Shown here: positions 986 through 57,235 of the stretch, one piece after another
Numbering within the stretch: position 1 is the first letter of the stretch
Layout: each line of letters starts with the position of its first letter
Assembly: GCA_950295325.1 (NCBI GenBank)
Contig: OX485805.1
Span: 58,120,758 to 58,184,757, forward strand
Length of the DNA stretch: 64,000 nt
Reading direction: 5' to 3'
Source: Polytrichum commune
Taxonomy: Eukaryota; Streptophyta; Polytrichopsida; Polytrichales; Polytrichaceae
Made by a program: the position numbers and the translations under genes
The notes under the pieces: model-generated
What the model saw: the letters and a program-made list of their open reading frames with translations, nothing else
Database searches by the model: none
Told to the model about the DNA's origin: nothing

Positions 986-2060
986 TTTACGAACGCGCGT
1001 TCGTGACCTCAGTAACTTCTCCATGTACATCCGGCGGCCTTCGAGATCCCTCAAATGAGAGCACCCTGAGGAATATCGGTTTTGTAGGTCAAAGTACCAT
1101 GTTGACTTAGGAACATGCGCGATATACTATCACAAGAGAACACTTGTCCATACGCACAAAATTAGCAAATCTGCAGATGATGCCTGAATCAACTCCAACA
1201 ATATTTTGAACACTGAGCACCTCCATATTGTGAATTTGATTATGTTGACTTTTGCGTACCTACCCATTTACGAACGGACGTTCGTAAATGGGTGCGACCC
1301 CGTGTTCACATCCTTCACGGACGAGCGATGAGCATATTTTTCTTGCTATTCTGTGTTCGTAAATTACTGCCATACTGATGTGCATGAATGAAGATGTGTT
1401 GCTGGATGCGTAGACAATAATGACATGTATTTACGAACGAACGTTCGTAAATTCCCGACCATCAGGTAACAATAGATACGGGTCAAATAAGTATGTATGA
1501 TCCTCGAAGGCATATTTACGAACGCACGTTCGTAAATGACTGTCATGGATTAAGTGCATGTGACTAACCATATGAGTACCTCAATCCAGAACATGCTCTC
1601 ATGTGGGATTTACGAACGCACGTTCGTAAATTACCGACCAACAGGTACCAATAGACAAGGGTCAAATATGTATGTATGAAACTCGAAGGCATATTTACGA
1701 ACGCACGTTCGTAAATAAATGCCATGGATGATGTGCATGTGACTATCCATGAGTAGCTCAATCCAAAACATGATCTCCTGTGGGATTTACGAACGCACGT
1801 TCGTAAATTACCGACCATCAGGTACCAATAGATAAGGGTCAAATATGTCTGCATGGTCCTCGAAGGCATATTTACGAACGCACGTTCGTAAATAACTGAG
1901 ATGGATTACGTGCATGTGACTATCCATATGAGTAGCCCAATCCAGAACATGCTCTCATGTGGAATTTACGAACGCGCGTTCGTAAATCCTTGCCATGTCC
2001 AGGTCCGAATCGTTTGTCTAAACCTGAAGCTCTTCATCTTTACGAACGTGCGTTCGTAAA
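986..2060. repeat. Family A palindrome cluster upstream of E1 transposase (10 sites)
   Basis: 22-bp sites with half-site TTTACGAACG, two variable bases and the reverse-complement half lie at 986-1007 (degenerate right end), 1267-1288, 1430-1451, 1515-1536, 1609-1630, 1694-1715, 1786-1807, 1871-1892, 1965-1986 and 2039-2060. They occupy the region just upstream of the minus-strand transposase start at 663, so they are placed to act as operator or protein-binding sites. The inner CG of each half is nearly invariant and the two central bases vary (CA, AA, GC, GA, TG). Confidence 0.9.
1430..1986. repeat. Iteron-like tandem array, about 178-bp unit, two palindromes per unit
   Basis: Roughly three direct repeats with starts near 1430, 1609 and 1786. 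Successive palindrome starts alternate in spacing: 85, 94, 85, 92, 85 and 94 bp. The sequence between palindromes is also conserved (for example the block around AACAGGTACCAATAG and the block around ATGCTCTCATGTGGGA). The array is part of the presumed transposase control region. Confidence 0.85.
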
Positions 2061-2595
2061 GTTCCGGTATTTACGGCGGTATATGCGGTAGGTACAGCCT
2101 GTACTGTACCTGGGTGGTGTAGGGTTGGCGCACACGAAATGGCTTGAGCGCGTTCGGTGAGGTCTGTAGAGCGCACACTTGCATGTGCCGCTGAAAAGAG
2201 CTTTGTTGTGGGGGGAAGAGCTTTAAGTACTTCACCCCGCTGGTTCAAAATCCCTTGGATGCTTTTTAAAAAGCAGATTCCCGCCGCCTTCTTTGACCTA
2301 ACAATCTCCCATTCCATCCATGCGGAATTATATAAATAGCATTGTCATGTATGGAACATGCCTTGCATGCACGCCAACATATTGAAAATATATAAATCGG
2401 TTGCACACCTTAGTTGTGACCAAGGTCTCATCGAAATATATGTATATACGTATATATATATATATATATATATACACATAATGTCTAAATATGGAGATGG
2501 TTAACATTGAATATTTAATGATTTGCGACTAAGGTATGAAGTCCAAGTTAATTGACAATTAATGCCTAATAAAGTTATGAATGTCGAAGTCATAG

Positions 2596-2636
<41 letters not shown>

Positions 2637-2966
2637 CAATGAGGTCAGAGTGGCTAAGAAACATGTTGCGGACGCCCCTAAAATTATAGGTATCATATGT
2701 TTCACATCAAAAAATGACCGTAATATGGTCACCAAGTGCATGAATACAACTAAAAAATCGGGTTAATCCATAATGGCTTGCACTAGGGTAGATTGAGGAC
2801 ACTATGAACTAATTATACCTAATAATATATGTAAGTTAGGTCTTCTTTCAAATGGTATCTAGGTGTGAAAATAAGGAATTAAAATGGCATGAGTAGGAAG
2901 GATTAATCAATTTGTAATGCTGCATAGTATGATAGCGTAATGATCATTGAGACTTGAAACCATACT
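2061..2966. other. Conserved transposase-distal intergenic block (homologous to 13214-14076 inverted)
   Basis: No gene is visible. The block aligns in inverted orientation with E2 13214-14076, including the segment around AAGAGCTTTAAGTACTT, the TATA-like run at about 2328-2338 (ATTATATAAATAG, pointing right), TA microsatellites at about 2450-2475 and 2597-2615, and a distinctive stretch at about 2762-2800 ending near TAGGGTAGATTGAGGA. Homology stops at about 2966, which corresponds to the point in E2 where E1 is inserted. Conservation between two diverged copies suggests a regulatory or structural role; a rightward transcript from the TATA-like box is only a possibility. Confidence 0.7.
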
Positions 2967-4259
2967 AGCTACCGTAACGTTGAATCATAGTTACAATTAT
3001 TATGTGTTTGACGTCCTATTGGAAATTGAATTTTCGTCCACTTGTTGTAAGGGTACGGATACACATTGGTTAAATGTTTATTAGATCATTGGTGATATTT
3101 ATAGTTGAATGCATTGTTCGATTGTTAGTTTAAGTTGACACATGATTAAATGAGTTGAGGTCCTATTGGAAATAGACTTTTAGGGTTTGGGGAAATGCAC
3201 TATTAATTTGGAATGGTGCATACAATAGTATGTACTTACAATTAATATATGTTTTGCATCCTATGAGAAGGATGTGCATCATCATAGCTTAAAGTGTTGA
3301 TATAAATTGAAGTCTTAAGACATGCATGTTATTATAATAAGATCGTGGATTGTGTGATGAAATTTCACTCAGAACTATTAAGGTGAAAGTGGGAATATTT
3401 GAAATTTCACTTATCACTTAAACCAAAGTTTTATCTCAAATCTATTAATTTGGAATGTGAAATTGACAATTGCCATCATTATCAATTATTATAGTTGTTA
3501 TGAACGGAATTAAGCATTCTCCATCCAACCAACATTGGTAGACCAATTTGACCTGCCCTCAGAAAACAACATGGCCACATATAAGAAAGGTTGGTAAGAT
3601 AAAAAGATGCAGGGATGTAGGGTTTAGGGTTTGCGGTTAGGGTTTAGGGTAAGGGTTTGGGGGTAGGGTTTAGGGGTTTAGGGTTTGTGAAAGTTGTGTA
3701 TGTGGTATTTGGGTTTAGGTTTTAGATTGTTACTAGGATACATTACACACACAAACAATATTGACTCCTCAAAAACCCTTGTAATTGCATTAACTTCATT
3801 CATCGCAAGCTCGTAGTTGATGCTAGCAAAATAGTTGACCACTCCAGAAATGCATTAGTTCAAGCTAACACCTAATATTAGAACTTGAATTGACATCCTA
3901 TCGTATAGCAACTCTGCGCAATCTCATATTATTATGAATTCTTTTTTGCATGTAATATTTATTTGAGGAACCATCGAATTAATTGAAAGATATCTAGCTC
4001 TTACATAAACTATATTTTAAAACACCATATATATATCTTTGGGGGTGGATTCTACATTGACAACCTAGGGAGTGACATGCATTGTTTATTACGAATTAAC
4101 TGAGCATATTTTCCTAAAATATGTTTACAAGGAATCCAAATGTAGAGGTACTAAGGAAATAAAACGAGTAAAATTCATGTATTTGAACTAAGCTTGTCAA
4201 GTTAATGCCTTAAACGCGTCCATTACATATAAATATGTCAAAGCATGAGAATAACATGA
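2967..4259. other. AT-rich spacer of E1 without recognisable gene
   Basis: No reading frame of note on either strand. The stretch is AT-rich with short repeats and contains the telomere-like tract described separately. It lies between the two divergent gene sets of E1. Confidence 0.6.
3616..3689. repeat. Interstitial telomere-like repeat (TTTAGGG type)
   Basis: Several degenerate copies of GGGTTTA with variants such as GGGTTTGCGG and GGGTAAGG run in one direction. This is the plant telomere unit. It sits inside transposon E1, not at a chromosome end, so it is probably a captured or regulatory repeat. Confidence 0.8.
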
Positions 4260-4490
4260 AGGGTTCCAATATACAACCATCTTCCATCTCCCATCGCATC
4301 CCATCACCTCCCATACCATCCCATCCCATCTCTCTCCCAACCCTAGCCAGTGGAGTTGTGCCACGTGGCAGGTGCTGGGAAACCCTAGCGGCGCACCTAC
4401 CTCCCCGCGCCCCTTCCTCTTCTCCTCATTTGTCATTTCGAGGAGAGGAGGAGCGGAGCGTTTAGAGAGCGAAGCTCTTGCTTTTTTTAG
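4260..4490 (+). promoter_or_regulatory. Probable promoter of the E1 fusion gene (G-box, teloboxes)
   Basis: A C/T-rich tract of CATCCCATC-type repeats (about 4275-4340) is followed by a palindromic G-box GCCACGTGGC at 4360-4369 and telobox-like AAACCCTAG at 4380-4388. The sequence then becomes GAGA-rich. This arrangement is typical of plant promoters and lies upstream of the leader of the plus-strand fusion gene. The transcription start is not identifiable by eye. Confidence 0.5.
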
Positions 4491-6007
4491 TCTTGAAGTT
4501 TTAAATTAGTTTTGTTGCAAGTTTTGAGAGATTTCAGATTGAGAGCTTGTGTGAAAGCTTTTGAGTTTGTGAAAGCTTTCATTGTGAAAGCTTGTGAGTT
4601 TGTGAAAGCTTTCAGTGTGAGAGTTTGTGAGTTTCAAAAGCTTGAGAGCTTGAGTAGGAAAGCTTCAGAGTTTCGGATTGAGAGCTTGAGGGTGATCTTT
4701 AGAAGCTTGAGAGTTTAAGGAAGCTTTAGAGTTGAAGCTTGAGAGTTTAAGGAAGCTTCAGAAGTGAAGCTTGAGAGTTTAGGGAAGCTTCAGAAGTGAA
4801 GCTTGAGAGTTTAGGGAAGCTTGAGAGTTTAGGGTTTGCTTAAGAGTTCAGAAGCTTGAGAGCTACAAGGTTGTGAGTTTTGTGTACATAGGAGTATACT
4901 AGGGTTTGTATATAAGCTGTGAAGGCTTGAGGTCTGCATTAGAGAGTTATCTGAGTGTGCATTTGAAAGGCAATTGAGTGTGCAGTTGTGAGGATTTCTG
5001 GGATTTTCAGAAAGAGAAGAAGCAGGGATTGCAGTGTGCAGCATTTCAATGTAATTTGTTATCCTTTCCAACTCCTCTCACATTCTGAAAATGTTGCTTC
5101 TTGAATTCAATTTCTTTTGTTACATGCAATGTGAACTATCACTCTTTTCTTCATGTTTCATTCTGCATCTCATTCTGCATCTCAATTGCTTTATGATTGA
5201 AGAATTGCATCATTCTGACCAAAATTTTGCAGGCACGGCTGCAAGCAGAGTAACTAATAAGTGAGTTATATACATATACATATATATACGTATTCGTATA
5301 TACACGAATACATATATGTACGGACAGGGGATCCCAAAACCATCACATATACGAACGCTCGTTCGTAAATGGACATACACTGCATACCCACCTCCATTTA
5401 CGAACGCTCGTTCGTAAATGGACATACACTGCATACCGAACCTCCATTTACGAACGTGCGTTCGTAAATACGCACTCCACGTTCTTTGAGATGATCTATA
5501 TTTACGAACGCACGTTCGTAAATATACTCAAAATATCACTCAGAAAGAACCTTAACTTAAATATGAACCTCTATGAATATCTAAAGAACAAATACAATTT
5601 TGCGAACACCAATAAGACAAATCACATGTACTTACGAAAGATAAATCAACCAAATATCCGAAAAGATAGACCAAATGGACATACTTACGAACGCACGTTC
5701 GTAAATGAATCCAAACCTATAAAACCTATATCTTTTACGAACGATCGTTCGTAAAAATAACCAAATATATTACAAACACATTCATGACGAGTAGTCTCTT
5801 TGATCTTCATATCTTTTACGAACGCTCGTTCGTAAACTCAATACTAAAAATTTATATGATCTTGCAACCCCTCATTTACGAGCGAACGTTCGTAAATATA
5901 ATTACATCAATTGCAAAGACGCATTAACACTGCGTAGTCTGTGGGATATGCATGTCACTTACGAACGTTCGTTCGTAAAGTCACTAATTGTTTATATTAT
6001 GTTGCAG
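4491..6007 (+). other. Leader region of E1 fusion gene with purine-rich repeats and probable 5' intron
   Basis: From about 4500 to 4860 the plus strand is built from short degenerate repeats of the type GAAGCTTGAGAGTTT. E3 has an analogous TTGAGAGATT-rich leader on its coding strand (57880-57420). The coding start at 6008 directly follows a splice-acceptor-like GTTGCAG, and E3 likewise has TTACAG immediately before its ATG. An intron in the 5' untranslated region ending at the start codon is therefore likely in both. Nine family A palindromes lie in the second half. Confidence 0.5.
5348..5979. repeat. Family A palindrome cluster in leader of E1 fusion gene (9 sites)
   Basis: Sites at 5348-5369, 5397-5418, 5447-5468, 5501-5522, 5684-5705, 5734-5755, 5815-5836, 5875-5896 and 5958-5979. 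Same 10-2-10 layout as the cluster at 986-2060. They lie between the promoter and the coding start at 6008, probably inside a 5' intron. Confidence 0.9.
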
Positions 6008-7303
6008 ATGGCAAGATCAAGCAGAAGCGCCATTGAGATGTTCGCGGTGAAGGTCGATGGCCTCCCAGAGTCGGTGTTAGACGATAACGGCAACGACAAC
6101 TATGTCCCCAAGGAAGACTTCATGGGGGAGTGGACGGCACTGCCAGAGAAGATCGGGGACGGCCTCTTCTGCATGCGCTTCACCTACGAGCTGGAGACAA
6201 GACCGGACTAGCCCGAACAGTGGGTTCAAATGAAGACGTGGGAGATAGAGTCCATAGAGGCCCAGGGGGAGTATGTAATTCTGGACATGAAGAACAAGAA
6301 GGATCATATCAACCTCTTGTTACATTTTCAGAAAAATACCTTCTCCTACCAATACGCCACCAATAACGTAGCGGAAGATGCCAAGCACTTCGACCTGGAC
6401 GGCCTCTTCTCCAAATATGCGTTGAGCCCATACTGGACTGCAAGGAAATTGAACGCCCTGGCATTGAACATCTCCAAATACAACAGTGTGGTCACTGAGG
6501 CAAACAAGAAGAAGAAGAGCCCCAGGAAACCATCCACATCAGGGGCAGGAGGATCTAGAAGTGCACCCAGGCCTGTGCCTTCCGCTAGCAGGGCGACGGA
6601 GGGCCCCAGTAGACACTCCACGCCATCGAAGAGGACAAGGGAGGAGATGGAGAAATCGGGAGTAACGGAGACCGCAGAGGTGACCTCGCCTGTCGTAATG
6701 CCCACCCCCTTGAAAAAGGGTGAGAACCCTGACGCTGTGAAGGCCACGAGGATCCTTCGAGACTTCAACAACTACTCGAAGGATTGCTGGCCCATGGGAC
6801 GCCACTTCACATTCAACGTGGACTGCTTCAAGTGCGAGATGTCCTCCAACAAATGGGTGGTTCGCTCTCGCGAAAGCGGTGGTGTGAAGTGGCAGATAAA
6901 TAATCTAATGAACAACGTCAAGTGGGACAGGCAGACCGTCTGCGTCATGCCGAAGGGGCTGACATCCCGTCCGACGGAGAAGGACTGGCCACGGATCCAG
7001 AATGGAGAGTTCTGGATCATAGACGGCCAACACAGCTTGGAGGCGTCCCAAATAATTCTCAAGGACGACAACTTCCAGCATGAGCTGAAGGAGGACTTGC
7101 GCTACTGGAAGGCGTTCTTGGTGTGGTCGGACGATTGGGACAAGCTGCGGAAGATATCCACCTTCCTCAACTCCGGCAACAAAATCAAGGCCTTCGAGGC
7201 GTCGTGGGCAGCCAACATAGTGGCTGCAAGGGACGTCTGGGTCGCCCACGGGTGCCCCCCTAAAGAAAGGGAGAACGCGAAGACGCCGTCTCCACAATGG
7301 AAG
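6008..7303 (+). CDS. E1 fusion gene exon 1: ParB/DGQHR-like domain
   Basis: First coding exon of a gene reconstructed as four exons (6008-7303, 7425-8750, 8891-10324, 10944-11711; all junctions phase 0, GT-AG; about 1600 residues). The exon has a basic Ser/Pro linker (KKKKSPRKPSTSG) and then a domain with IIDGQHSLEAS at about residues 337-347, followed by FLNSGNKIKAFEASW. A DGQH(R/S) motif followed by a conserved Asn-containing helix is characteristic of ParB/DGQHR-type folds that bind DNA or cut it. E3 has the same landmarks (LIDGQHSVEAS, YFNMGNNKRAYQASW). An in-frame TAG at 6209-6211 interrupts the N-terminal part; aligned with E3 this is a Glu position, so a single substitution (GAG to TAG) would explain it. 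If the stop is real, translation could restart at the ATG at 6230. Function is inferred by similarity of motifs only. Confidence 0.65.
6209..6211 (+). other. In-frame TAG in exon 1 of E1 fusion gene
   Basis: The stop sits between a frame that opens at 6008 and the continuation of the same frame through 7303. There is no change of frame across it. E3 also has an in-frame TAG (56539-56541), but at a different aligned position. Confidence 0.85.
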
Positions 7304-7424
7304 GTGAGTTTACGAACGAACGTTCGTAAATATCTTTGACATTCAAATTTTCAAGTTCTTTGACATTCAAACTTACGAACGTGCGTTCGTATTTTGTGCG
7401 TTACTGATGTTTTTCTTGCTGCAG
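7304..7424 (+). other. Intron 1 of E1 fusion gene with two palindromes
   Basis: Donor AAG|GTGAGT and acceptor TTGCTGCAG. Palindromes at 7309-7330 and 7372-7393 fill about a third of this 121-bp intron; the first begins five bases into the intron. The matching E3 intron (55238-55498) has four family B palindromes at the same location in the gene. Confidence 0.85.
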
Positions 7425-8750
7425 GCATTCTGCGACGCGATGGTGGACAAGTTCTCCTCCATCGACATGAAGTCTACAACAACCAAGTCTGTCCTGGAGC
7501 TCAAGGGTGAGCTCCGCCTCATCTGTTGCAACAGGGACACTTGGGAGTTGTGGACACAATTTTTTGATGCGCACAGCTCGGGCGATCTGGTCAACCCCGA
7601 CACCGAGGAGAAGTACAGCGCGGAGAAGACCGGGGAGGCCCCTCCACTACTGAGGGAGTTCTTCAGGTCCCTTCAAGGGTTAACAGAGTCCGAGTTGCAG
7701 AGGTGCGCGGTGCATCTTCTTGGGAACACTGTGGGAAGAACCATCCCATACCCGAAGATATTTTTGAAGAGGCCAAGACACAAGCCCGGCACGTATTCCA
7801 TCAAGGAATGGTGCGAACACCGCAAGCTGAAGACTGCTGCAATGAGGGAGTTGAGCGCCCTAATACCAGAGTACGCACTCATCCTAGCCGACGGGGACAT
7901 TAATTGGGCCAGCTGGAAGATGTTCAAGGTCGACTACAACATCTCCGGACCCTCAATGCGTTGTCTTGTCAAGGAGCACGCCTCCATTTTGAAGCAGAAG
8001 GGGAACAAGAGGACAAAGAAAACCGAGACGGATCCCCAAGAGGTGGAGCAATACAGAAGCTTTTTGACACGGAAGAGGTTGGCCACATTCGAAGGAGTGG
8101 CCAGATTTTGTCTGTTGACAAAAGGAGTGGAGAGGGTGACATTTTCCAAGTGGGACCGGACCATGAGCAGGGCCGAGGTGAGGGAGGATCGACGGGGGTG
8201 CCCATTTGCCCTGATCGATTTCAGGGGGATCCCCGGTGCGTCGAGGCAGGGGGGGAAGGACATACCTTTCTACGACCCCTTCATGGCCAAGTTCAAGGAG
8301 CACAAGTCTCCGGACATGAGGGAGCCTCACGTTTGGCTGTGGATAGTCGAGCAGGAGAAGCTCTCTGCTGTAGTCGACCTGTACGAGAAGTCGATCAAAT
8401 TTGAGTACAGCATCTTCCACAGCACTTACGTGCCCGCCAAGACGGAAGGGATCGTGGCCATCAACGAGGCCAGGGGGAACAAACAGGTGGGGGCGGTCAG
8501 CCTCGTCTTCTTGACGTACAACGCGCTGCGGAATGGGCGAGCCCCTGTCAAGGCGAACACTACGTTCAAGAAGATCTACAGCATCCCCCATCCCCCTCCC
8601 AAGGATCTGCTGCAGGAGACCTTGTACACTGTCTTCCCGGCGATGGAACTCAGGTTGGAGTTCTACGTCTCCGTTTTGCAGAGCGTGGCAATAAGCGGAG
8701 AGACCGTGTACAACGTTTGTGGCGGCAGCAAGTTCATGTACGCTGCGATG
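7425..8750 (+). CDS. E1 fusion gene exon 2: N4/N6 DNA-methyltransferase-like domain
   Basis: 442 codons, fully open. It begins in a helical segment (MVDKFSSIDMKS, cf. MINKFSSIDNSS in E3). Its second half follows the order of beta-type N4/N6 methyltransferases: a strand and turn at the DPPY position reading FALIDFRGI (about residue 697), DPF shortly after, a hydrophobic strand VWLWIVEQEKL, and, at the exon end, GETVYNVCGGSK where the SAM-binding motif I (FxGxG) belongs. Exon 3 then opens with LGLVVNSFIEAIDEEDF, as in the C-terminus of these enzymes. E3 retains VFGGSK and MIDFRNI. The canonical DPPY is absent in both copies, so catalysis is doubtful and the fold may serve DNA recognition. Fused ParB-methyltransferase proteins are known in phages and bacterial mobile elements. 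Confidence 0.6.
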
Positions 8751-8890
8751 GTAAGCTCTCCAACTAATATTTACGAACGCTCGTTCGTAAAGTTCACCTC
8801 AACTTGTCTTGGGTTTGATGACATTGTTTCTCGTCGTTGATGTTTACGAACGCACGTTCGTATTTTCTAACGTATTTGCTTGAATCTCAG
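8751..8890 (+). other. Intron 2 of E1 fusion gene with two palindromes
   Basis: Donor ATG|GTAAGC, acceptor TCTCAG|ATG. Palindromes at 8770-8791 and 8843-8864. The equivalent E3 intron (53714-53905) contains three family B palindromes. In both elements the exon 2/exon 3 junction is ATG followed by ATG. Confidence 0.85.
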
Positions 8891-10324
8891 ATGCTGGGGC
8901 TGGTCGTCAACAGCTTCATTGAAGCCATCGACGAGGAGGACTTCCACGTGCACAGGGCGAAGGCCTCCACGATGGACCTGGAGGACATGTCCCTCCCGAG
9001 GACGGACATCAACATGCCCGTCGACGAAGGCATGCCCGCCATGGAGACGGACGACGACGAGCCCGCGCCCTCCTACAACGTCGAGGCGATCCTCCGATCC
9101 TTGGACGTCACTCCTCTCCGCATTTTGGCGCCGTCGGGAAATCCATCCGACGTGCAAGGGACTCCGGGTGGATACACGGGGTCGTCGGCGGGGACAACCC
9201 AAGATGTCCTCCCCGCGAGAACGTCTGGAGCGGAGGCATTCGGCACTCCCGGGGGATGCTCGACATCCGTGTCGCCCAGGCCGATCGTGGTTCCCAAGAT
9301 GGAGAACCTCGACCTTCTGGACCAACGGTCCCGACCGACGTTGGACCAGTACCGCAACACGAGGCGGAGGATGAAGAAGACCCCCTACGTGGAGCTGCCT
9401 CCGGGGGCAATCATCGAGGTCTCCGATGAGGACGAGGGCGACATGGAGATCATGGTCGAGCTGGGGGTAGACTTCGACAAGAACAAGCGGGTCAAGGAGG
9501 AGGCGTTGTCCGTCGCCGAGCTTAACGCCAAGCTCGAGCAAAAGATGAAGGAGGACATGGCGAAGGCGGCAGAGGAGAATGCCAAGAAAATGTTCGCAAT
9601 TCAGGAGGAGCTGAGGCAGTCCAACGAGAAGACGGACGCCATCCTCGCCATGCTCCAGCGTATGCAGAGCTTCTCGGCGCCCCCCCAGCCGGCCTACCCC
9701 TTCCCTGGAGGATACCCCTCCCAATCCCCTCCACCGGGCATGTTCACCGGAGGGCCTTCCCGCCAGCAGGCGCCCCACCCCACGCCTGTTGGCACTCCTC
9801 CGCCACCAGAGGTTCCCTCGACCACCTCCCACGATGCTGTGGCGGCGGCCATCCAGGAGGACGAGGATTTACGAACGCGCGTTCGTGAATCTTCAGGTCC
9901 TCCAGTCCTCACCCCTCCCCCTTCAAGGGTAGGACTGCCCTCATACACCGATGCATCGTCTTTCACCGTCGTCCCCATGGTAGTAGACAGACATGGCGAT
10001 GACTCTGCGCGACACACTGACATGGTCATTGTGGAGGACACGCAGGGGAGCCCCAATGACGCACCAGGGGTGCATGGGATGGACGTGGAAGAAACCCATG
10101 CGGCGTGGATGGAGGATGTCAGGATGGACGCGCTCGACCTGGGCGCCGAGGAAGAAGACGCGCTGCGCATCCAGGCGACACAGGCCTCTCAACCGGAGCG
10201 TGAGGCAGAGGCCATGGAGACAGAGGCGGCTGCAGCTGTGGAGGTTACGAACGCGCGTTCGTTAATCGTTGAGGAGGGACCTGCTGCTCGGTCCAGCGCC
10301 GCTACCCCTCCCCCCGATGACGAG
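8891..10324 (+). CDS. E1 fusion gene exon 3: methyltransferase tail, disordered and coiled-coil region
   Basis: 478 codons. The first 20 or so residues (MLGLVVNSFIEAIDEEDF) complete the methyltransferase-like fold. The rest is acidic, Pro/Gly-rich and low in conservation, with a charged coiled-coil segment around 9508-9670 (VAELNAKLEQKMKEDMAKAA and following). E3 exon 3 has the same plan with a different sequence (acidic tract, coiled coil, Pro-rich). Two family A palindromes lie in frame at 9868-9889 (coding LRTRVRE) and 10244-10265. The exon ends GAG|GTAACT; E3 ends GAG|GTAATA. Without splicing the frame would stop at 10337-10339, so a shorter isoform lacking the phosphatase-like domain is conceivable. 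Confidence 0.65.
9868..10265. repeat. Two family A palindromes inside coding exon 3
   Basis: Sites 9868-9889 and 10244-10265, both centred on GC/CG-type inner bases and both within open reading frame. The E3 exon 3 also carries two family B palindromes in its C-terminal part (45374-45395 and 45443-45464). Confidence 0.9.
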
Positions 10325-10943
10325 GTAACTCTCCTCTGAGAATACCATTTTTTAACGAACGCGCGTTCGTAACCTCTCTAACATCGCGATGTTTTTATCT
10401 TCATCGACATCCAGTGGCCTTGCGAGAGCCCTCTTCAGCGGTCCCCCCTTAGGGCCGAACAGTTTTGTAGGACACGGCATCATTTTGCCTTAGGAAAATG
10501 TGATAGACTATCACGTGAGAAATGTAAATATTCAACGGATTAATATATGAGCCTATGTTATCTGCATCGCGTTGCTTCAAATTCTCTGCCCTCGACCCCT
10601 TCTCGTATGTTGTATATGTTGATGAGATTATGTTGATTCTTGCATACCCACCTCATTCGCGAACGCTCGTTCGTGAAAGGCTGCGACCCACTGTCCACCT
10701 CATTCGCGAACGACCGCTCGTAAATGTACGTGTAGCCGCGCTCACGAACGAGCGCTCGTAAATGATGCGCACCGCCCCCGCAGCCTTCATTCACGAACGC
10801 TCGTTCGCAAGTGTGCCCTTGAGCACATTTTCCTTGCACTCTCCTCACTTCCTCGTCTTTCCCCATAATGCACCGTCTTCATTTTCTACGCAAAATTTCA
10901 TTATTGGATCATAGAATTAAACTAGTCGCGTTGTTCATCACAG
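10325..10943 (+). other. Intron 3 of E1 fusion gene with five palindromes
   Basis: Donor GAG|GTAACT, acceptor CATCACAG. Family A sites, several degenerate, at 10352-10373, 10656-10677, 10703-10724, 10741-10762 and 10790-10811. Alternatively this region could hold a promoter for a separate phosphatase-like gene; the matching phase-0 junctions in E1 and E3 favour an intron. Confidence 0.65.
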
Positions 10944-11711: not shown

Positions 11712-11822
11712 AATGCCTCCATGTCTTTGCTTGTATCATGTGGTTCACATTTACTAATGCTTGCTTCGTTTTTGGATGTCTTTTGTTGTTGTGATTGTTG
11801 TTGTTGTTGTTCTTGCCCATAG

Positions 11823-19040: not shown

Positions 19041-19042
19041 CT

Positions 19043-43709: not shown

Positions 43710-43828
43710 CTGGCGCAAAAAAGGAAACAAAACAAAACCCAAGGGGAGGGGGGCAGGGGGGAGCATGAGAAAATCGATATACAATTGAGGCATAATATAT
43801 CACACACAATGGCACACCATGTAGTATC

Positions 43829-45464: not shown

Positions 45465-45508
45465 ATCCTAGGGTTGTCCGATTGGTGAGGGGGCGCCATG
45501 ACTATGGG

Positions 45509-46501: not shown

Positions 46502-46503
46502 CG

Positions 46504-46515
46504 TGGTATCAGAGC
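46504..46515 (+). promoter_or_regulatory. R3 primer binding site
   Basis: TGGTATCAGAGC, initiator tRNA-Met type. Confidence 0.9.
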
Positions 46516-46529
46516 AGGGTTCCAAGTTT

Positions 46530-47600: not shown

Positions 47601-47621
47601 AGCTCACAAGGGAGCTGGGGT

Positions 47622-48330
47622 TTGCCGATTGGTAGAGTGGTGAAGCCCACCAAGGTGCGGTTTGGAAAGGGCGAACCGCATGAGACAAAGGAGGCCGCGA
47701 TGCATGTAACCTTTCAATGTGGGACATTGGAATTTTATCAAAATTTCACACCATGTGAAATAGATGAAATGCATGTCATTGTGAAGGCCGCCTTCTTTGA
47801 AACTCACATGATAGATGTGAGGTGCAAGCCGGTGTGCTTGCCGTGCATTATGATGTGTCATAATGACAAAGAATTGAAGTTCAAATTGACAAGGACTCCT
47901 ATGGTAGGAGGACCCAAGTTGAATTTGGTCTTAATGGACCAAATTAAATGAAATATGGTAAATATAATGGTCGTGGTTCAATTGAAGCAACTCCAAGGAA
48001 CTCATGGGGAGGCTAGGAAAGATGGGCCTCCCCCAAACCATACTTGTGGGATGTTGGTGAGATACAAGGATGTATTCACCAATGTGTTGCTCAAAATGTT
48101 ACCGCCAAGAAGTGAATTGCAACTTTGCTCAAGAAGAAATTGAGTTCTTGAGGCATGTGGTGACAAAGGAAGTTGGTGGACAAACATGAAGAATTTCAAG
48201 GCAGTCCAAGAGGAGAATTGGTGCTTGATTCAAAAAAAAAAGCTTAGGTCATTGGTTGGCCTAGCCAACTACTACCACCACTTCATTCTAGATTTGTTTT
48301 AAGGTTGCTAGGGCCTTACTCGACTTATTG
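47622..48330 (+). pseudogene. R3 protease region and truncated RT
   Basis: VRFGKGEPHETKEA, FTPCEIDEMHVIVKAA, then DVFTNVLLKMLPPRSE and directly the RT end near 48120. RT core missing at the same junction as R1. Confidence 0.75.
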
Positions 48331-49330
48331 AGGAAATGGCTATTCCAAGAGTGGGATGAGCCTTGTCACCAAGCCCTTGGAAAGCTCAAGAGCAAGTTCC
48401 CTTCACAAGATGTGGTTAAATTTCCGGGTTTTCATAAGCATTTTGAGGTGCACATGGAGACGTAGGACTTTATCATTGGCGGATGTTGATCCAAGATGGA
48501 TGACCATTGCTTATGAGAGCATTAAGCTCCATGGTTGTCGAACCTTGTCCGGCTTGTGCAAGAAATGGCTATCCCAAGAGTGGGATGAGCCGTGCCACCA
48601 AGCCATTGAGGAGCTTAAGACGAAGTTCTCTTCGCCGCCCGTGCTCAAGTTCGCGGAGTTTGACATACCTTTTGAGGTGCATACGGGGGCGAGAGACTTT
48701 ATTTGGCGGATGTGGATGTAAAAAAAAAAAGATGGCCATTGCATATGAGAGCATGAAGCTCGATGGTTGTCCCACCTTGTGCGACTTGTGGAAGAAATGG
48801 CTATCCCAAGAGTGGGATGATGTTTGTCACGAGTCTTTGGGGAGTTTAACACCAAGATCTATTCGCCGCCCGTGCTCAAGTTCATGGAGTTTGACAAACC
48901 TTTTGAGGTGCTTACGGGGGTGAATGACTTTGCCAATGCCAATGATGGATTGTTAATGTAAGATGGATGGCCTTTGCATATGGGGGCTTGAGGCTCGATG
49001 GTTGTCAAAGAAGACAACCAACTCATGACAAAGAACTTCTTTGCCGTAGTGCATTGCTTGAAGATGTGGCGACATTATTTGGGGTCGCACAAAGCAAAGG
49101 TCTACATTGACAATGTGTCCTAAAAGTATTTTAACGTATACAAGCACAAGTGAGCGCCAAGTCATTGCGGTGGCATGATAGTTTGGCGCTTCTGAAGGTG
49201 GATTTGGTCCACAAACCGGACCATGGAAATGTGGTGCCAGATGCGCTAAGTAGACCGGATGAGTTCCAAGCAATGAGAACCATCCAAACCTTGTGGCTAA
49301 TGTGTGCCGGCGAAGGAAACTTGTGATGCA
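48331..49330 (+). pseudogene. R3 RNase H with tandem segment
   Basis: CAAGAGTGGGATGA at 48346, 48575 and 48806 (period 229-231 bp). Each unit encodes EWDEPCHQ-like and PFEVHTGA-like residues. Confidence 0.7.
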
Positions 49331-49398
49331 AGATACGGGAGGGGTAAATTAACTACCCCGAGGCACAAAAGCTTTTAGGTGAGCTTCGCAAGAGCAAG

Positions 49399-50355
49399 GT
49401 GCTCAAAGAGGTTAAGTTGGTGGACGGATTGTTCAAGTGTAAGCAAAGTCGGGTGTATGTGCCTCAAGGCAAGTTGAGGCTATCGGTTTTGAAGGAAAAA
49501 TGTGATAGTCCTATTGCCGGCCATAGAGGAGAAAGAAAAAACCGCCATAGAATGGTGTCATGGAGGTACCATTGGCGGTGCATAAAGGAGGATATAACCC
49601 ACTTTGTGAAGGCGTGAATAAAGTGCCAAGTGAACCGAGCCTCTTACCAAAAGCAAGGCGGTTTCTTGCAACCGTTGCCTATCCCGTCGGCGCCATGGCA
49701 TAGTATGTGCATGGACTTGATCACAAGTTTGCCGGAGTCACATGGGTATGATGCCATCTTGTTGATGGTAGAGCGGTTTGCCAAGTTGGCACACATGGTG
49801 CCGATTGTGGGAACCGCCACCGCGTTGGAGACCGCATAGCCTTTTCTCAAAGGATGGTTGAGGCACCACGGGTTGCCAAGAGTGATTGTGTGGGATCAAG
49901 ATCCAAAGTTCACAAGTGCATTTTCAATGCATTTCTCTAAGGAGGTCGGAATGAAACTAAGGTTTAGCACGGCCTTGCATTCCCAAATGAATGGGAAAGC
50001 GGAGCATGTGAATGGAGACTTGAAGCAATACTTGAGGAACTTGGTGGGGGCGGACCAAGGAGATTGGGCGGACTATGTGGGTCGAGCGGAGTGTAATTGC
50101 AATGTAGCCACGCACTTGGCTACCAAGGGGTGGTCTTTGGTGGTGGCTTATGGAGTGGATGCGCTCCAACCTATTAACCTAGCTCTCGAGGGGGCACATT
50201 CAACACTAGAGTTCAACCAAGATGGTGAGGACTTGGCCAAGGATGGTAAACAAGTCTTGGAGATGACCAAGTTGTTGGTGGAGAAAGCCCGAAGGTGCTA
50301 CGGAGTGCAAATCAATGCCGGAAGACGCGAAGTGGAGTATGAGGTGGGCCAATAA
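49399..50355 (+). pseudogene. R3 integrase
   Basis: First Asp in MDLITSLPESHGYD, second in VIVWDQDPKFTS, Glu in GKAEHVN. The shared TAG lies at 49837-49839. The core downstream of it is open to 50355. Confidence 0.75.
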
Positions 50356-51644
50356 GGTGGGCCAATAAGGTGTTGTTGAATGTGGACAACTTCACCTTGC
50401 CCAAAGGCCTTACTTCAAAAGTTCATGTCCAAAATTGGAGCTTCGTTTTCCATTGTGGAACAAGTGTTCAAGGACATGTATAAGTTGGAATTACCGCCGG
50501 AGATCAAAGTGCATCCGAAATTTCATGTCTCAATACGAAAGTCATTTTAGGACGACACCTTGTGGCCCGATCACAAGCAAGTGATTAGGCCACCTCCCGA
50601 CCTTATGGAGGTCATTTGGAACATGAGGTAGGAGGGCACCCTCAAGTGTAGGAAGCCCAAGTGAAAATGAAAAAAAATGTACAAAAGAGTACTTGGTGAA
50701 ATGGTGAGGATACCATGAAAAAGAAACCGCTTGGGTGGCGGCAAGAGACATGGTGAACACCAATGAATAGGTGAAGCACTTTGAAGAAACTAAGGCTAAG
50801 GATTCCAATAAAAAGAAGCGTAGGCATTGATGAGGACATCAATCTCCTTTAGTGGGGGAGAGACGCTAGTAGCACACTTAGCTTCGAGGTTAATTACTCC
50901 ACAACATGAACTTGTTCTTTGGCTTGAGGGAATAAAGTCCAAACTTTAGTGGTGCAAAGAGAAAAGTATGAGATGAGGTCCTAGTCTTGTACTTGTGCTT
51001 GGTTAATGGAAGAGGGGGAATAGATATGCCAAACTAGGTTGGGTAAGCCGAGTAATTGGGGGCCATGGCTTGGAGGGGCCTTGGATAAAACCAAGAAACT
51101 TCTTAGTTGTGGGCTTGTCCGGGCGGGGGCAAGGTGATGGCGCGTGCTCATAAAAGTGCTACCCGCGAGCTAACGAGAGTTGGCGCATGGGAGTCATGAA
51201 CCCATGTCTCGAAAGAGCAAAGTGGGAACCGAGTCGGGCGGGACTTGGCATCACCCCCGTGCGATCGAGGCGTGGCTTAACAATGGAAAGCCATCTCGGA
51301 GTTGCAACCGAGACAACTTAGTGGAAGCGTTGAGGTCTCGCCTAGATGTGTCACGTTAGGCTAGTGGAGCCTAACGGGGGAGGCCCCAAAGGAGGGGCAA
51401 CCCAAGTGAGTCCCAAAGTAGGTGGGTCTAGTATAGGTTAGGTCCTTGGATGAGAGATCCAAGGTCGCTAAAGGACCACCTAGGAACGACACCTTTGGGA
51501 CCATGCCAAATTTGAAGATGCATTGTGGGGGTCGCGCCCTAAGGTAAACACAATGCCGCATCATAGAGGATGGCAACTTGAGAATTGGTGTGCCGACTAC
51601 GAGTATAGTCGATGAGGGCATCGACTCCGTTTGGTGGGGGTGAG
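50356..51644 (+). pseudogene. R3 chromodomain-like end and 3' noncoding region
   Basis: Broken chromodomain-like segment to about 50830, then about 800 bp noncoding ending in the purine tract GGTGGGGGTGAG before the 3' LTR. Confidence 0.6.
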
Positions 51645-52637
51645 TGTCGCGCACCTCTCCATGAGGAGTGGCCGAAACACCATGGGCACAAGGGGGACCC
51701 CGGAGTGACACCCGGGACTTGTGGCGCCGTTGGTGAGAGGGCCCAAGTGATCCTAGTGTGGGTGAGGGCCCCGGGCGTTGGGAACGCCTCCCACCCACGA
51801 AGACTAGGAGGCACAAGGGTAAGGCCATGAGCTATGCGTAGCTCATGGCGTGGTGATTCTAGAATGCTCAAGAACACCTCAATCGGAGGTGTGAGCTAGG
51901 AGTTATGGCCATTTGAGTGGGGCGCTGTCCCGGGACAGCGCCCTGGTACAGCAGTGCCTGGGAGGGATTCCCGGGACTGCCAAGGTTCAAACAGGCATAA
52001 CTTCCCCAAGACTTGCTCGAATGGAGCAAGTGAGGAGTCCATCGGCATCTACGTGAAGCGTAGATGAGGATGGAGTGGTTGGTTGTTATGATCAGACATC
52101 ATACAAGAAAGTTATGATGGTCTGAAGCTGCTGGGGGGTTCTAGGCCCAGCAGCTAAAGGAAATTGTCCACTTGGCCCCAACTCTTGGTAGGGAGACAAG
52201 AGGTTGGTTGACGGTGGGGTAGGGGCCCCGCGTAGAGTCCTAGAGGCTTATATGGGTGAGGTGGTGTGGCCTCACCCACCCGAGGCCGAACGGCACGGCC
52301 TCCATTGGCATTGGCCTAATGTGAGGCCATAGTTGCCTAGTATGGTTCGGGTTGTTGTAGTGTTGCTCCGGCAACGCGATGATCAACATAAGATTGGACT
52401 TCCATGGATGGAAGTCCACATCTAAGGATTGGTTACCGATTAAAGGGGTTGGTTAGCGATTGAAGGGGTGAGTCCCGAAAGCAAAGTAGGAGGGTTGGTT
52501 CCCTCCTATGAACTATTGGTCCGGGGTAAGAGGAGCTATCCATTAGCATGGCGGAATGCGAATGGTTAGCGCTCGTAACCTTTGGTAGAAATGAAAATTG
52601 GCAAGATTGTCAAGGGGGGCTAGCAAGGGTTGCGACA
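51645..52637 (+). repeat. R3 3' LTR
   Basis: 993 bp, same as the 5' LTR. Confidence 0.9.
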
Positions 52638-53783
52638 ATGGGGGCCCGAAGTGGTGGAGGGCCCAGAGGGGAGGAAGCTCCAGAGACGCGCCAGATGTTG
52701 GGGTCATCCACTTGCTGGACCGGCGCGTACGGAACTTGGTGGGGCCGAATCAAGTGCTGGAAGCTGAAAGACGATTGCGGCAAAGGCTGCTGAGGGATGC
52801 TCTGCGCAGGGAAGCTGGGGGGCAAGTGCGGGAAGGCGCTGGAGGGAGCCACCACCAAACCTTGTGCCCACATTCCTTGTATCACTTGTGATATCAAGTC
52901 GGCGTGGGACGGAGGTTGGGCCATCACCCTTTGACGCTCCTGCTCCAACAGGAGAGCCCTCAGCTTTGCGACCTCGTTCCGCATTGAGGGTTCTTCCGCG
53001 GCAGCGTTCTGCAGGCGGACTCGCTGCTCCTCGTCCCTCCTCATCTTCTCATTCGCCTCCTCCATAGTCAGGACCTCGGGCTTCACCCTAACCATGCCAG
53101 CAAACGCTGTCGGGGACGGGGGATCCGATCTTAGCCGTTTGGCGAGCTCAATGTCATCGTCGTCCTCGCTACTTATGGCAATGGTCTCCTCCACGGAGTA
53201 GTCGCCATACAGCTTCTTCCCGTTTAACTTCCTCCTCTCCCTGAACGTGGCGGTGGTGTCCCTGGAGTACATGTCCCGTGCATCGTCCACCGTCAGGACG
53301 GGCACCAGCTTACTTTGCGGGGTTGCCGCCTGCATCGCCTTCTTCCGTTGAGGGGCTTTGGATTCTTGCGTGAAGCCTGTTGCCCCTTCCTCCACGTCGC
53401 CTTCCTTCTCCGCCTCCTCGTGCTCCTCTTCTTCGTCCTCCTCGTCGACCTCGCCACCTTCTGTGCGGGACGGATTGCCCGGATGCAACTCGACAAGAGG
53501 TTCGGGTACTTGGGTTGTGGCCCTCATGGCCATTTCTTCCGGGTTGATCCGCCTCACCCTATCAAGAGGGTTTTCGCCCCCCTGAACAACCTCATCGACG
53601 TAGCTACCCGGGATCCAATCGAGGATGTCCATCTTCTTCGCCAGCGATCTCTGCGTCCTGTAAAATGGCAGATCGCCATCCTCTATGTAGGAGTATATAC
53701 TCAGCCCCGACATCTACACAATCCAAGTTATATAGACATTAGAATTAGGCGAGAGACATAAACAAGACCAAAAACAATATCTA

Positions 53784-53877
53784 GTTTGGGTCGATCGACC
53801 CAAACCAACACAGAGCCTAGTTTGGGTCGATCGACTCAAACCAACAAAGAGCCTAGTTTGGGTCGATCGACCCAAAC
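53784..53877. repeat. Family B palindromes in intron 2 of E3 (3 sites)
   Basis: 53784-53805, 53820-53841 (one mismatch) and 53856-53877, evenly spaced at 36 bp within intron 53714-53905. Confidence 0.9.
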
Positions 53878-53905
53878 TGCGCACGAGTTATAGAAAGTCG
53901 CTTAC

Positions 53906-55237
53906 CATGGCAACATAGATAGGTTTAGAGCCTCCGAAGACGTTGAAGATGCAGTCCCCTCTCCTCGTCAGCGTCCTCATCATTCTCACGTAAAATTCCA
54001 TCCGCAGCTCATCTGCAGGATAGTTCACGTATTTAGCCTCGTCGTAGAGGCACTTGTTGGTACCCAACCCTTCTGGAACTTGGAAGAGTTTGTCCATCTG
54101 GGATATAGGGTGGTTCGGCACCTTCAGCAACTCCGCTTTGTACACGAAGTACAAACACAAGACGTTGACGAACTTGGTCTTCTTGTCCCTCAACGTCGTG
54201 TAAGCCCCCTCCGCCGGTGCGGCGATGTAGTGAGACTTGGAGACTGCATACTCCGGCTGCAGTTTCCGGAGAAGCTCGTACACCTGCTCCGCCCTCCTAT
54301 CCTCGACTATCCAAAGCCAGATATCTACCTCCCAGAACTTAGGGCTTGCATAATCGACGAACTTAGATAGGAAGGGGTCATAGAAGAGGGTGCTCATGAT
54401 GCCCTCAAATGAGCTTCCAAGAATATTCCTGAAATCAATCATCCCAAAAAGAAAGCGGTCCCTTGTTTTCGTCCTTATCGCCATTCTGGCGTCTTGACCT
54501 GGCCAGCCCTGAATTTTCAACGGGTCGGTGGTGACAAGGTTGAAGTACGCTTCCCCTTCAAACTGGACAATCTTCTTCTCCTTGATGAAGTTCGAGAACG
54601 CACGCACTGTGTGATCCGGAAGCGCCCGGTTTTTCCCACCCTTCACCATCTTGGCCCGCAAGAAGTCGTCCCCCGCTTCCCTTATTAGAGCCGCCATGGA
54701 GGCACTGGTGAACTTATATTCATCTTTGAATGCTCTCCAGTTAGCCTCATGAACCTCGCCGTCCACGACAATATTCCTCTCTGGCACCAATTTATGCAGC
54801 TCCTGCACGATAGTCGTCTTCTTTTTCCTGTTCTCCGTCCATTCCTTCATGGTGTAGCATGAAGGAACGAAGGATTTGGGCTTTACGAAGACAATCTTCG
54901 GGTGCACCCAGCACCTCTTGGCCGTGGGTGCCACGTGCAGGATGTGAGATGCCGCCTTTTCCACCTCCGTCTCTGACAGCCCTTGAAGAGTTCTAAAGAA
55001 CTCTCTCACGAGAGACTTCATCTGCTTGAAGCGCGAGGTTTGGCTGAAGAAAATGCCAGTGTCGGGGTCGATCAAATCCCCCGTCTCGTGCTTTTCAAAC
55101 ACGGTTTTCCACTTCCTCCAAACTGAGTCAGATGTTGTAATCAAGTAAATCTCCCCCTTGAGGTCGCTATATTTCTTCTGCTTGTGGCTCGAATTATCAA
55201 TGGAGGAGAATTTGTTGATCATTTGGTATTTGAAATC
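53906..55237 (-). CDS. E3 fusion gene exon 2: N4/N6 DNA-methyltransferase-like domain
   Basis: 444 codons, fully open, between acceptor GTGCAG (55238-55239) and donor ATG|GTAAGC. Aligns with E1 exon 2 along its length: MINKFSSIDNSS, FFRTLQGLSETEVEKA, FLFGMIDFRNILGSSF at the catalytic-loop position, FYDPFLSKF, DIWLWIVEDRRAEQ, and GDCIFNVFGGSKPIYVAM at the SAM motif I position. The motif I is closer to the canonical FxGSG than in E1. DPPY is replaced by IDFR as in E1. Preservation of a 444-codon open frame between two diverged elements indicates past selection on the protein. Confidence 0.65.
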
Positions 55238-55327
55238 CTGCACGTCCACAAAACAGAACATTTGAATGCGTGTTAGATATGTACATGTGATTTCCAACCC
55301 ATATCATGACCAACATCTGCAACAACA

Positions 55328-55489
55328 GTTTGGGTCGATCGACCCAAACTAAAAAAATACAAGACTCCAACAGTAGTTTGGGTCAATCGACCCAAACTAA
55401 ATAAACAAGGCTGCATCAGGAGTTTGGGTCGGTTGACGCAAACTAAATAAACAAGGCTGCATCAGGAGTTTGGGTCGGTCGACCTAAAC
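55328..55489. repeat. Family B palindromes in intron 1 of E3 (4 sites)
   Basis: 55328-55349, 55376-55397, 55422-55443 (degenerate) and 55468-55489, within intron 55238-55498; spacing 46-48 bp. Confidence 0.9.
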
Positions 55490-55498
55490 AATACTCAC

Positions 55499-56823
55499 CT
55501 CCCATTTGGGATTCTTGTCATTCGCATTCTCCCTCTCCTTGGGAGGCCTACCATAGAACTCCCACACCTCCCGCGAGGCCATGATATTCCTTATCCAGGA
55601 AGCTTGGTAGGCCCTCTTATTATTTCCCATATTGAAGTACCGGGAGATGTCGCTGAGCTTGGTCTCGTCGTCAGACCACACCACCAGTGCCTTCCAAACC
55701 TTCAGCTTTTCCTTCTGATTGTTCGGATCATCCCACTCATTCATGAGTTGGATTTTCTTGGATGCCTCCACGCTGTGCTGGCCGTCTATGAGCCAAAAAT
55801 CGCCCTTCTGAATTGTTGGCCACATTTCCGGTGTAGGCATTTTCTTGAGACCCTGTGGCATCACTACTATCGTTTGCCTGTCGTCTTTAAACTGCTCGCA
55901 AACGATCTGCGCGATTATCCAGTCAACGTAGGCGTCCTCCTTTGCCCGGACACACTTCTCCGGTGGCGCTAGATGGCACTGGCTGATGTTCACGTCGAAC
56001 TTGAAATCCCTGCCTATGAAAAAACAGTGGGAGCATTTCGTCGTGAAATTGTTCACGATTTTCTGCAGCTCCCCTACATCCACCTCTTCGCCGGGCTTCG
56101 GCATGCGCAACTCCGGTGAGACTGGCTCGTCAGTCATCACAGATGACTCTTTGCCCTCTTGGATGGAGTTGTTTGACGGCTCCCAGAAGGTGTAGGCGTC
56201 TCGCTATCCGCAGGTGTTTGGGAGGGAGTGGTCCTCCGCGAGTCAGCCGGTACTGGTTGCGGCTTCCTCACCGATTGAGGTCTTAACGACCCTGCTCCTT
56301 CCTCTGTGGGAGCTTTCCACCTCACAAGTTGCTGTGATTTGGTTTTGCTTTGCAGGTCCTTGTTCAGCACGGTTATTGCATGTTTTAGTTTTGTGAACCG
56401 GCTTGAGACCTTGGTATTCGATGTACTCCCATCGATAAATATTGTCTCTGGCTTGATAACTTCCGGTTCAACACAGGACTCTATTGCATAGAGTGCGTCG
56501 AAAGGCTCGGAGAACTGGTGCATGAACATATGCGCGTTCTACACAGCCGAGTTCTCGAGGATGACATCGGTGTAGTCTCCAAGAGACTGTACCGATGCGA
56601 CCTCCCATCCCGTAAGAGTAGCCCAGGTGTGTTTCTCCACGGTTCCCACCTTGATAACAAAAATCATTTTGTATGTTGAGGCTTTGACTACTTGAATAGA
56701 CCAAGCGAGGACAAGCCCGTCCTTAGGGGAATAGGAGTCATCCTGCGGGGTTTCGTGCTCCTGCCACAACATGTCCGGCGCAGGCATGAACCACCTTTCG
56801 CCGGGTCTTTTCTTTGGAGCCAT
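55499..56823 (-). pseudogene. E3 fusion gene exon 1: ParB/DGQHR-like domain, with stop and frameshift
   Basis: Starts MAPKKRPGERWFMPAPD right after acceptor TTCTTACAG. The DGQHR-like domain (VVMPQGLKKMPTPEMW, FWLIDGQHSVEAS, YFNMGNNKRAYQASW) ends at donor GAG|GTGAGT. Two defects: an in-frame TAG at 56539-56541 (aligned to a Lys codon in E1) and a one-base frame change near 56140-56165 in the Ser/Pro linker after TTPSKRAKS. Either this copy is dying or the N-terminal part is translated separately. The DGQHR-like domain itself is open. Confidence 0.7.
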
Positions 56824-56849
56824 CTGTAAGAAAATAATGTGCAATGTTA

Positions 56850-57235
56850 GTTTCGGTCGTTCGACCCAAACATCTACGACATGAATAGGTTTAGGTGGAT
56901 TGTATATTTATATATTTCAGCATCATTTGTATTGATAATCAGAATGTTTTGATTATTGGGTGGATTTGCATTTTATATTGTTTGTGACATGCAGGATTAC
57001 TTGATATTTTTCCTTGATACATTCCTTGATTATTATTTTTGGGTGGATGTGAATTTTATATTGATGCAAAAATCATGGATTTCTTTATGAATTTATAATT
57101 AGAAGACTTTGTTTGGGTCGTTCGGCCCAAACATGATGCTTTGTTTTGTGTTTGGGTCGGTCGACCCAAACAAGAGGCTGTGTTTGGGTCGACCGACCCA
57201 AACCTGTGGCCGTGTTTGGGTCATCTCCCCAAACT
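56850..57235. repeat. Family B palindromes in the leader of E3 (5 sites)
   Basis: 56850-56871, 57111-57132, 57150-57171, 57182-57203 and a degenerate one at 57214-57235, upstream of the coding start at 56823, mirroring the cluster at 5348-5979 in E1. Confidence 0.9.

Follow-up and report, generated by a model that had tools for sequence, protein, structure and literature searches.

Family-specific 22-bp palindromes in and around a gene for a putative ParB-like protein in Polytrichum commune

Two families of 22-bp palindrome, alike in design and different in sequence, recur within a 64,000-nucleotide stretch of the Polytrichum commune genome (NCBI GenBank assembly GCA_950295325.1, contig OX485805.1, positions 58,120,758 to 58,184,757, forward strand; hereafter the window). 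They lie in and around three mobile-element copies, E1, E2 and E3, of which E1 and E3 carry the same multi-exon gene. What reads these palindromes, and did reader and sites change together? A preliminary description of the window had suggested a DNA-binding protein diverging with its sites, like ParB and parS. On the analyses described here, we see an even chance that the palindromes are bound by the protein of the element in which they lie, and that this binding keeps the element open against silencing in the manner of VANC proteins, taking the pairing and this use of it jointly.

Two palindrome families share one geometry

Family A sites follow the consensus TTTACGAACG-NN-CGTTCGTAAA, and family B sites the consensus GTTTGGGTCG-NN-CGACCCAAAC. 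At up to 3 mismatches in 20 positions, family A has 41 sites, 17 of them perfect, spread from 986 to 15318 (30 in E1 and 11 in E2), and family B has 14, of which 8 are perfect, spread from 45052 to 57203. A damaged fifteenth B site can be recognized by its sequence at ~57214-57235, so the earlier estimates of about 40 A-family sites and about 15 sites in E3 hold. One hundred dinucleotide shuffles yielded 0 A and 0 B sites. The 10-2-10 design that had been described, with arms ending in CG and a free central dinucleotide, is borne out for both families: the arms have ten bases with CG as the consensus inner end, and the centre takes 11 different dinucleotides in the 41 A sites and 5 in the 14 B sites. 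An extra A tends to stand just outside each arm of the A sites (28/41 on one side and 31/41 on the other). Within the window, sites with up to 3 mismatches are confined to E1, E2 and E3, in support of the earlier interpretation.

The E1 gene lies on the plus strand and comprises a leader and exons at 6008-7303, 7425-8750, 8891-10324 and 10944-11711, separated by GT-AG introns. E3 carries this gene on the minus strand, with exon 3 split by a long terminal repeat (LTR) retrotransposon; the two genes share 36% identity in exon 2 and 41.5% over 236 residues in exon 4. The features are as follows.

986-2060, unstranded: upstream cluster of E1 with 10 A palindromes, some of them within ~179-bp tandem repeats
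5348-5979, unstranded: 9 A palindromes in the E1 leader intron (~5233-6007)
6008-7303, plus strand: E1 exon 1, protein start, conserved IDGQHS, in-frame TAG at ~6209
7309-7393, unstranded: 2 A palindromes in E1 intron 1 (7304-7424)
7425-8750, plus strand: E1 exon 2, helical part followed by a predicted methyltransferase-fold domain (exon residues 223-442)
8770-8864, unstranded: 2 A palindromes in E1 intron 2 (8751-8890)
8891-10324, plus strand: E1 exon 3, A palindromes at 9868 and 10244
10352-10811, unstranded: 5 A palindromes in E1 intron 3 (10325-10943)
10944-11711, plus strand: E1 exon 4, NIF (NLI-interacting-factor-like phosphatase) domain, motif DLNG
14077-15318, unstranded: E2 upstream cluster, 11 A palindromes, an inverted relative of the E1 upstream region
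15405-16910, plus strand: transposase-like coding sequence of E2, next to the cluster, with a disrupted frame and interrupted by a solo LTR at 16911
43829-44683, minus strand: E3 exon 4, NIF domain (start approximate)
45052-45073, unstranded: 1 B palindrome in E3 intron 3
45374-45464, unstranded: 2 B palindromes in E3 exon 3
53784-53877, unstranded: 3 B palindromes in E3 intron 2 (53714-53905)
53906-55237, minus strand: E3 exon 2, relative of E1 exon 2
55328-55489, unstranded: 4 B palindromes in E3 intron 1 (55238-55498)
55499-56823, minus strand: E3 exon 1, conserved IDGQHS, in-frame TAG, frameshift near 56200
56850-57203, unstranded: 4 B palindromes in the E3 leader intron

The two families were said to share their placements, and this is true of part of the gene. 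E1 has 10 sites upstream, 9 in the leader intron, 2 each in intron 1, intron 2 and exon 3, and 5 in intron 3. Of the 14 B sites in E3, the leader intron and intron 1 contain 4 each, intron 2 contains 3, exon 3 contains 2 and intron 3 contains 1. The leader intron, introns 1-3 and exon 3 are thus common ground, whereas the upstream cluster belongs to E1 and E2: from 57204 to an LTR retrotransposon at 60590, E3 has no B site at up to 3 mismatches. The 3' part of E1 (11712-12824) likewise has no A site at up to 3 mismatches, and a single one at 6 mismatches (12420). The two exonic E1 sites, at 9868 and 10244, stand in different codon frames and encode different peptides, which indicates that the DNA sequence rather than the peptide is what is kept. 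Both gene copies look decayed, with a TAG in exon 1 of each and the frameshift in E3.

Relatives of the element protein carry seven half-site types

Three protein searches of public contigs returned 168 relatives (12, 79 and 88 hits, overlapping), with a contig for all but two. Their gene models seem to have been read through splice sites, so that intron palindromes appear in the translations. A sites surface there as LRTxVRK, YERxFV and FTNxRS, and B sites as VWVxRPK, LGRxTQT and FGSxDPN. We back-translated 137 such tails (3,275 residues; P0001, P0002, P0012 and P0050 left out) and found 75 windows that encode a perfect CG-ending palindrome at a gap of 2. The same test gave 0, 1, 0, 3 and 0 windows at gaps of 0, 1, 3, 4 and 5, and 0-3 windows in 20 residue-shuffled tail sets. 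Strict site patterns were absent from the exon cores (0 in 64,098 residues). A looser test found CG-ending matches in 0 of 31,225 core windows versus 38 of 1,248 tail windows for exon 2, and in 3 of 29,749 versus 38 of 1,145 for exon 1.

The tails add five half-sites to A and B, so that further families with other half-sites, which the preliminary description had suggested looking for, do exist. The seven in total – TTTACGAACG, TTTACGGACG, TTTACGNCCG, GTTTGGGTCG, GTTTCGGTCG, GTTTGGGCCG and GTTTCGGGCG – all have the 10-2-10 layout and the inner CG. Some come from few tails, as TTTACGNCCG does from P0032 and P0093; a hand reading of P0092 points to G at its open place. One tail, that of P0052, carries both the GTTTGGGTCG and the GTTTCGGTCG type, and P0123 does likewise by a looser reading; judged from their translations, these two are possible intermediates of a specificity switch. 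P0068 and P0134 form a separate branch, 47% and 49% identical to E3; since the longest contig is 5939 for both, they may be exons of one element.

In IMG/VR viral contigs we found 0 A and 0 B sites. Searches for exon 2 relatives gave 81 pattern-matching stretches in viral contigs and 68 in prokaryote genomes, 0 confirmed in either. At the search sensitivity used there is thus no sign of a bacterial or viral source of exon 2.

Site type follows the protein trees

With strict automatic labels and with E1 and E3 included, the exon 2 tree (30 rows) and the exon 1 tree (33 rows) each carry the 7 types with 6 changes, the minimum possible. Among 1000 label shuffles the count never fell below 11 changes for exon 2 or 12 for exon 1. 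Tests on subsets were weaker: B types by themselves were matched by 2 (exon 2) and 3 (exon 1) of 1000 shuffles, and A/C/D types by 63 (exon 2) and 4 (exon 1). Labels assigned by hand gave 6 changes for 7 types over 37 rows in exon 2, or 7 if the mixed protein counts as its own state, and 7 changes for 7 types over 42 rows in exon 1, with B2 occurring in two places and P0121 at odds with its B4 clade.

Among proteins in which 7 or more residues lie outside the exon, strict labels were available for 36 of 69 in the exon 2 set and 41 of 59 in the exon 1 set. The exon 2 tree contains 68 of 82 rows and the exon 1 tree 71 of 94, a reference row being counted in the 94; ambiguous A/C labels (5 for exon 2, 6 for exon 1), the mixed P0052 and labelled rows that were too short were excluded from the counts. 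The exon 1 and exon 2 data sets mostly read different introns, yet they show the identical seven types. A comparison of protein columns for specificity residues gave candidates and no clear answer, there being too few proteins per derived type.

The A sites listed for the genome are clustered

The 407.8-Mb genome of P. commune contains 2,909 exact A sites, and a reversed control pattern matches 0 times. Among the 86 distinct A-site places listed for these sites, 84 have a neighbouring site within 2 kb. At one offset, two clusters among the places listed come within 30 bp of 14 of the 17 exact sites in the window; this overlay has a high background, as the wrong orientation matches 11 and 9. 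Recurring exact spacings are firmer evidence: among the places listed, the 1351 bp that separate window positions 5958 and 7309 recur in two clusters, and the 1461 bp from 7309 to 8770 in one. Beside one cluster lies a transposase-like match (55% over 47 residues; L001-L004, all from that cluster, were compared). Of the genome-wide search that had been proposed for both palindromes, these are the results for family A.

The encoded protein combines a predicted ParB-like fold with domains that lack the usual catalytic motifs

We examined exon 1 through its relative P0002, for which a weak model predicts a ParB-like fold. Its listed structural matches are headed by ParB, Noc, KorB and PadC chains; such matches, including sulfiredoxin, make up 12 of the 50 listed, and 6 of these 12 also span the following helical part, at high root-mean-square deviation. 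Profile searches of exon 1 against Pfam, NCBIfam and PHROGs returned weak hints only; among these were PHROG 1033 'ParB-like partition protein', seen with 2 of 16 proteins at a best E of 0.071, and DUF1015, seen with 1 of 7 (E 0.02). The comparison with ParB and parS made in the preliminary description thus appears apt for P0002 exon 1, with the model being weak there.

Exon 2 gave a better model, which predicts a methyltransferase fold: all 50 matches listed are methyltransferases, mostly of the N6-adenine or N4-cytosine kind. The catalytic motif of the beta-class amino-methyltransferases is DPP[YFW]. E1 exon 2 has DFRxxP where DPPY/W is expected, and the motif is missing from all 68 proteins compared, in which a conserved D is followed by F/W/Y and then R/C/K rather than PP. 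Exon 4 carries a NIF domain in E1 and E3; the two scores, 53.7 and 49 bits, are above the curated Pfam cut-off of 21.8. The catalytic motif of NIF, or FCP1-SCP, phosphatases is DxDx; E1 and E3 both have DLNG in its place. Searches of PDB sequences gave best E-values of 0.75 for exon 2 and 0.46 for exon 1, and none at 0.001 for the NIF exon. An Rfam scan had 0 matches at gathering scores. The VANC domains DUF1985 and DUF287 were absent from the Pfam results for the eight E1 and E3 exon open reading frames and for 7 exon 1 and 58 exon 2 relatives, a search that very remote forms could escape.

Element boundaries and neighbouring features

The elements had been called CACTA transposons, a label that the window does not bear out. 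We found no pair of CACTA/CACTG ends there (up to 2 mismatches in 14, equal 3-bp flanks, 0.8-25 kb apart), and the ends may lie outside it; with no inverted repeat and target duplication, CACTA membership is unproven. The only sequence resembling a terminal inverted repeat, ACTAGTG at 12819, was rejected as an end because it is the stop codon of a downstream reading frame with a counterpart in E3. Beyond exon 4, E1 and E3 share a conserved coding stretch (11823-12823 in E1; ~42899-43799, minus strand, in E3; DAASxxDYS, GYSRGxEIFR), perhaps representing further exons or a second gene.

A transposase-like gene lies on the far side of the E1 and E2 clusters and is best preserved at 15405-16910. 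It is incomplete. A CACTA element would carry a Tnp2-type transposase; the one Pfam match to the pieces, joined by hand, was weak and to DUF7869 (E 5e-4, below the cut-off). The flanks of the E1 and E2 clusters have CpG observed/expected ratios of 0.64 and 0.66 and TG+CA excesses of 1.44 and 1.47. Other flanks differ among themselves: E3 intron 1 has a ratio of 0.34, the E1 leader intron 0.88 and intron 3 0.93. CpG loss at the clusters is therefore a local sign and not a rule.

The E1 upstream segment 893-1327 is a 65% identical copy of the element's own exon 3/intron 3 region (10259-10716), which makes the gene a possible source of part of the upstream cluster. Behind the E3 gene, at 42521-42731, are three imperfect palindromes 89 and 100 bp apart, two reading GTTTAGGTAG-GG-CAATCCAAAC and one GTTTAGGGTG-GG-CAATCCAAAC, which retain the outer GTTT/AAAC and have altered inner arms. 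The solo LTR within the E2 transposase-like gene (16911-17884) is flanked on both sides by CTTCA, and further LTR elements with matching flanks lie at ~18067-24977 (CATGG), 27649-34697 (GTCCG) and 45509-52637 (ATGGG).

A proposed role for the palindromes

We propose that the palindromes are sites bound by the element's own exon 1-4 protein. Its parts would be a ParB-like domain followed by a helical stretch, a methyltransferase fold that lacks the catalytic motif, and a NIF domain. A symmetric assembly, probably a dimer, would read the two arms, and with many sites over the promoter region and introns the protein could cover the element that encodes it. Protein and sites would be kept matched within each lineage, so that a change of specificity would be followed by a change of sites across the element. 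The most likely use is that the element's DNA is held open against silencing, as VANC does for VANDAL. This proposal starts from observed sites, geometry, seven types, tree fit and clustering among the A-site places listed; the folds come from models, and from these together we infer binding, the dimer and anti-silencing. The earlier ideas of co-divergence and of a ParB-like reader gain support.

Two points weigh against the proposal. One element contains both site and protein and passes them on jointly, so congruence by itself is no proof of interaction: the co-divergence that had been suggested agrees with the minimum number of changes on the trees, and joint inheritance alone would give the same. 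The E1 and E2 spacers are 76% identical over 942 aligned positions. In the clusters, many palindromes line up nearly unchanged where the intervening DNA aligns poorly, yet the sites compared were chosen by likeness to the consensus, which favours intact ones and biases the contrast between site and flank. Congruence, expected under joint inheritance, and the tandem repeats in both clusters could suit palindromes that have no reader and were spread by tandem duplication and conversion and inherited with the elements. That sites outlast flanks in E1 and E2, that both arms change together with symmetry kept in seven types, and that the spacing is fixed at 2 make this improbable. On the sequences, arms changing together, constant geometry and the same seven types in both exon data sets speak for a reader. 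That this reader is a host protein seems very improbable, as seven specificities following the element's protein trees would be unexpected of a host factor. A role as RNA hairpins was also weighed for the palindromes and set aside.

If the element's protein is the reader, its use could differ from anti-silencing. It might clamp and spread as ParB does, to tether, pair or segregate copies or to form a nucleoprotein body, with no silencing role. The modelled P0002 exon 1, matched first by ParB, Noc, KorB and PadC chains, and palindromic sites like parS would fit; we nevertheless think this unlikely, as a chromosomal element needs no partition, the model is of low confidence and many scattered sites suit coating better than a single loading site. 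We are just as doubtful that the sites serve as operators through which the element regulates its promoter and splicing, bound by its protein or by the transposase: the upstream clusters, with divergent genes on either side, and the leader intron are where operators might lie, but in both E1 and E3 every later intron and exon 3 also have sites, well away from promoters. The case for transposition cis-elements like the TNPA-bound subterminal repeats of En/Spm draws on the family-specific subterminal motifs and dedicated binding protein that the available text describes for CACTA elements (PMC2613891). It appears improbable here, because the sites crowd the gene's introns, 11712-12824 of E1 has none at up to 3 mismatches and element ends were not found in the window.

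Beyond the anti-silencing proposal, a bolder version of it is conceivable, and we hold it tentatively: a eukaryotic transposon with a true ParB-parS-like system, in which a nucleotide-switched ParB-fold clamp, joined in one protein to an adenine methyltransferase and a phosphatase that are both retired, would load at dozens of its own parS-like palindromes, spread and block host silencing, with at least seven specificities in which protein and sites change together. It is an old question how the specificity of a DNA-binding protein can shift jointly with that of its many sites. Seven fixed-geometry types on one protein family, together with the apparent intermediate P0052, make the path of such a change directly testable. 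A ParB-like domain in a eukaryotic mobile element would, if true, extend the known reach of the fold, and matched protein-site pairs could become orthogonal DNA-tagging tools.

Comparison with known systems

Among the top 3 to 20 results listed for each literature search, in a collection that lacks most subscription papers, we recognized no description of a ParB-like transposon protein or of these palindromes. The likeness to ParB, Noc and KorB with parS lies in the modelled ParB-N-like fold, in the helical part after it that some structural matches align, and in specificity that differs between relatives. parS is a palindrome, and here palindromic sites occur in an element that encodes a predicted ParB-like protein. 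parS differs from the A and B sites in sequence and length. ParB has an arginine-rich nucleotide motif, at the place of which the E1/E3 protein has IDGQHS. Further differences are the eukaryotic genome and transposon setting, the extra methyltransferase-fold and NIF domains, and many sites instead of few.

Phages and archaea have fusions of a ParB fold to N6_N4 or MT-A70 methyltransferase domains, and ParB-fold proteins are often found on mobile elements, according to the portion of the source available (PMC12704722). The fusions resemble the predicted E1-type protein in joining a ParB fold to an adenine/N4 methyltransferase fold. As described there, they are not part of a transposon with its own palindromes (PMC12704722), and E1-type proteins differ in lacking the catalytic motif (68 of 68 examined).

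TNPA of En/Spm exemplifies the dedicated binding protein of CACTA elements, and in the available text of a 2008 soybean CACTA paper the speed of protein/motif co-evolution is left to future work (PMC2613891). Both systems would have an element-encoded DNA-binding protein, its binding being predicted here, and family-specific motifs; they differ in that no CACTA ends were found, the sites are not subterminal as far as seen, and the Pfam domains are unrelated.

VANC proteins, encoded by VANDAL (MULE) transposons of Arabidopsis, have their own target motifs, as the accessible parts of two papers describe (PMC5735166, PMC10398659). Anti-silencing was demonstrated for VANC, and the VANC21 motif, YAGTATTAY, has 9 bases in the portion of that account available (PMC5735166); the sites here are 22-bp palindromes, some of them in coding exons, Pfam gives no DUF1985 or DUF287 in the E1/E3-type protein, and anti-silencing by E1-type elements is a proposal. 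The same portion (PMC5735166) describes an element-encoded protein with short motifs in introns, upstream and in other non-coding element DNA, motifs set in fast-changing tandem repeats, and related families with different motifs. The P. commune elements resemble this in having family-specific motifs in their non-coding DNA, partly in tandem repeats.

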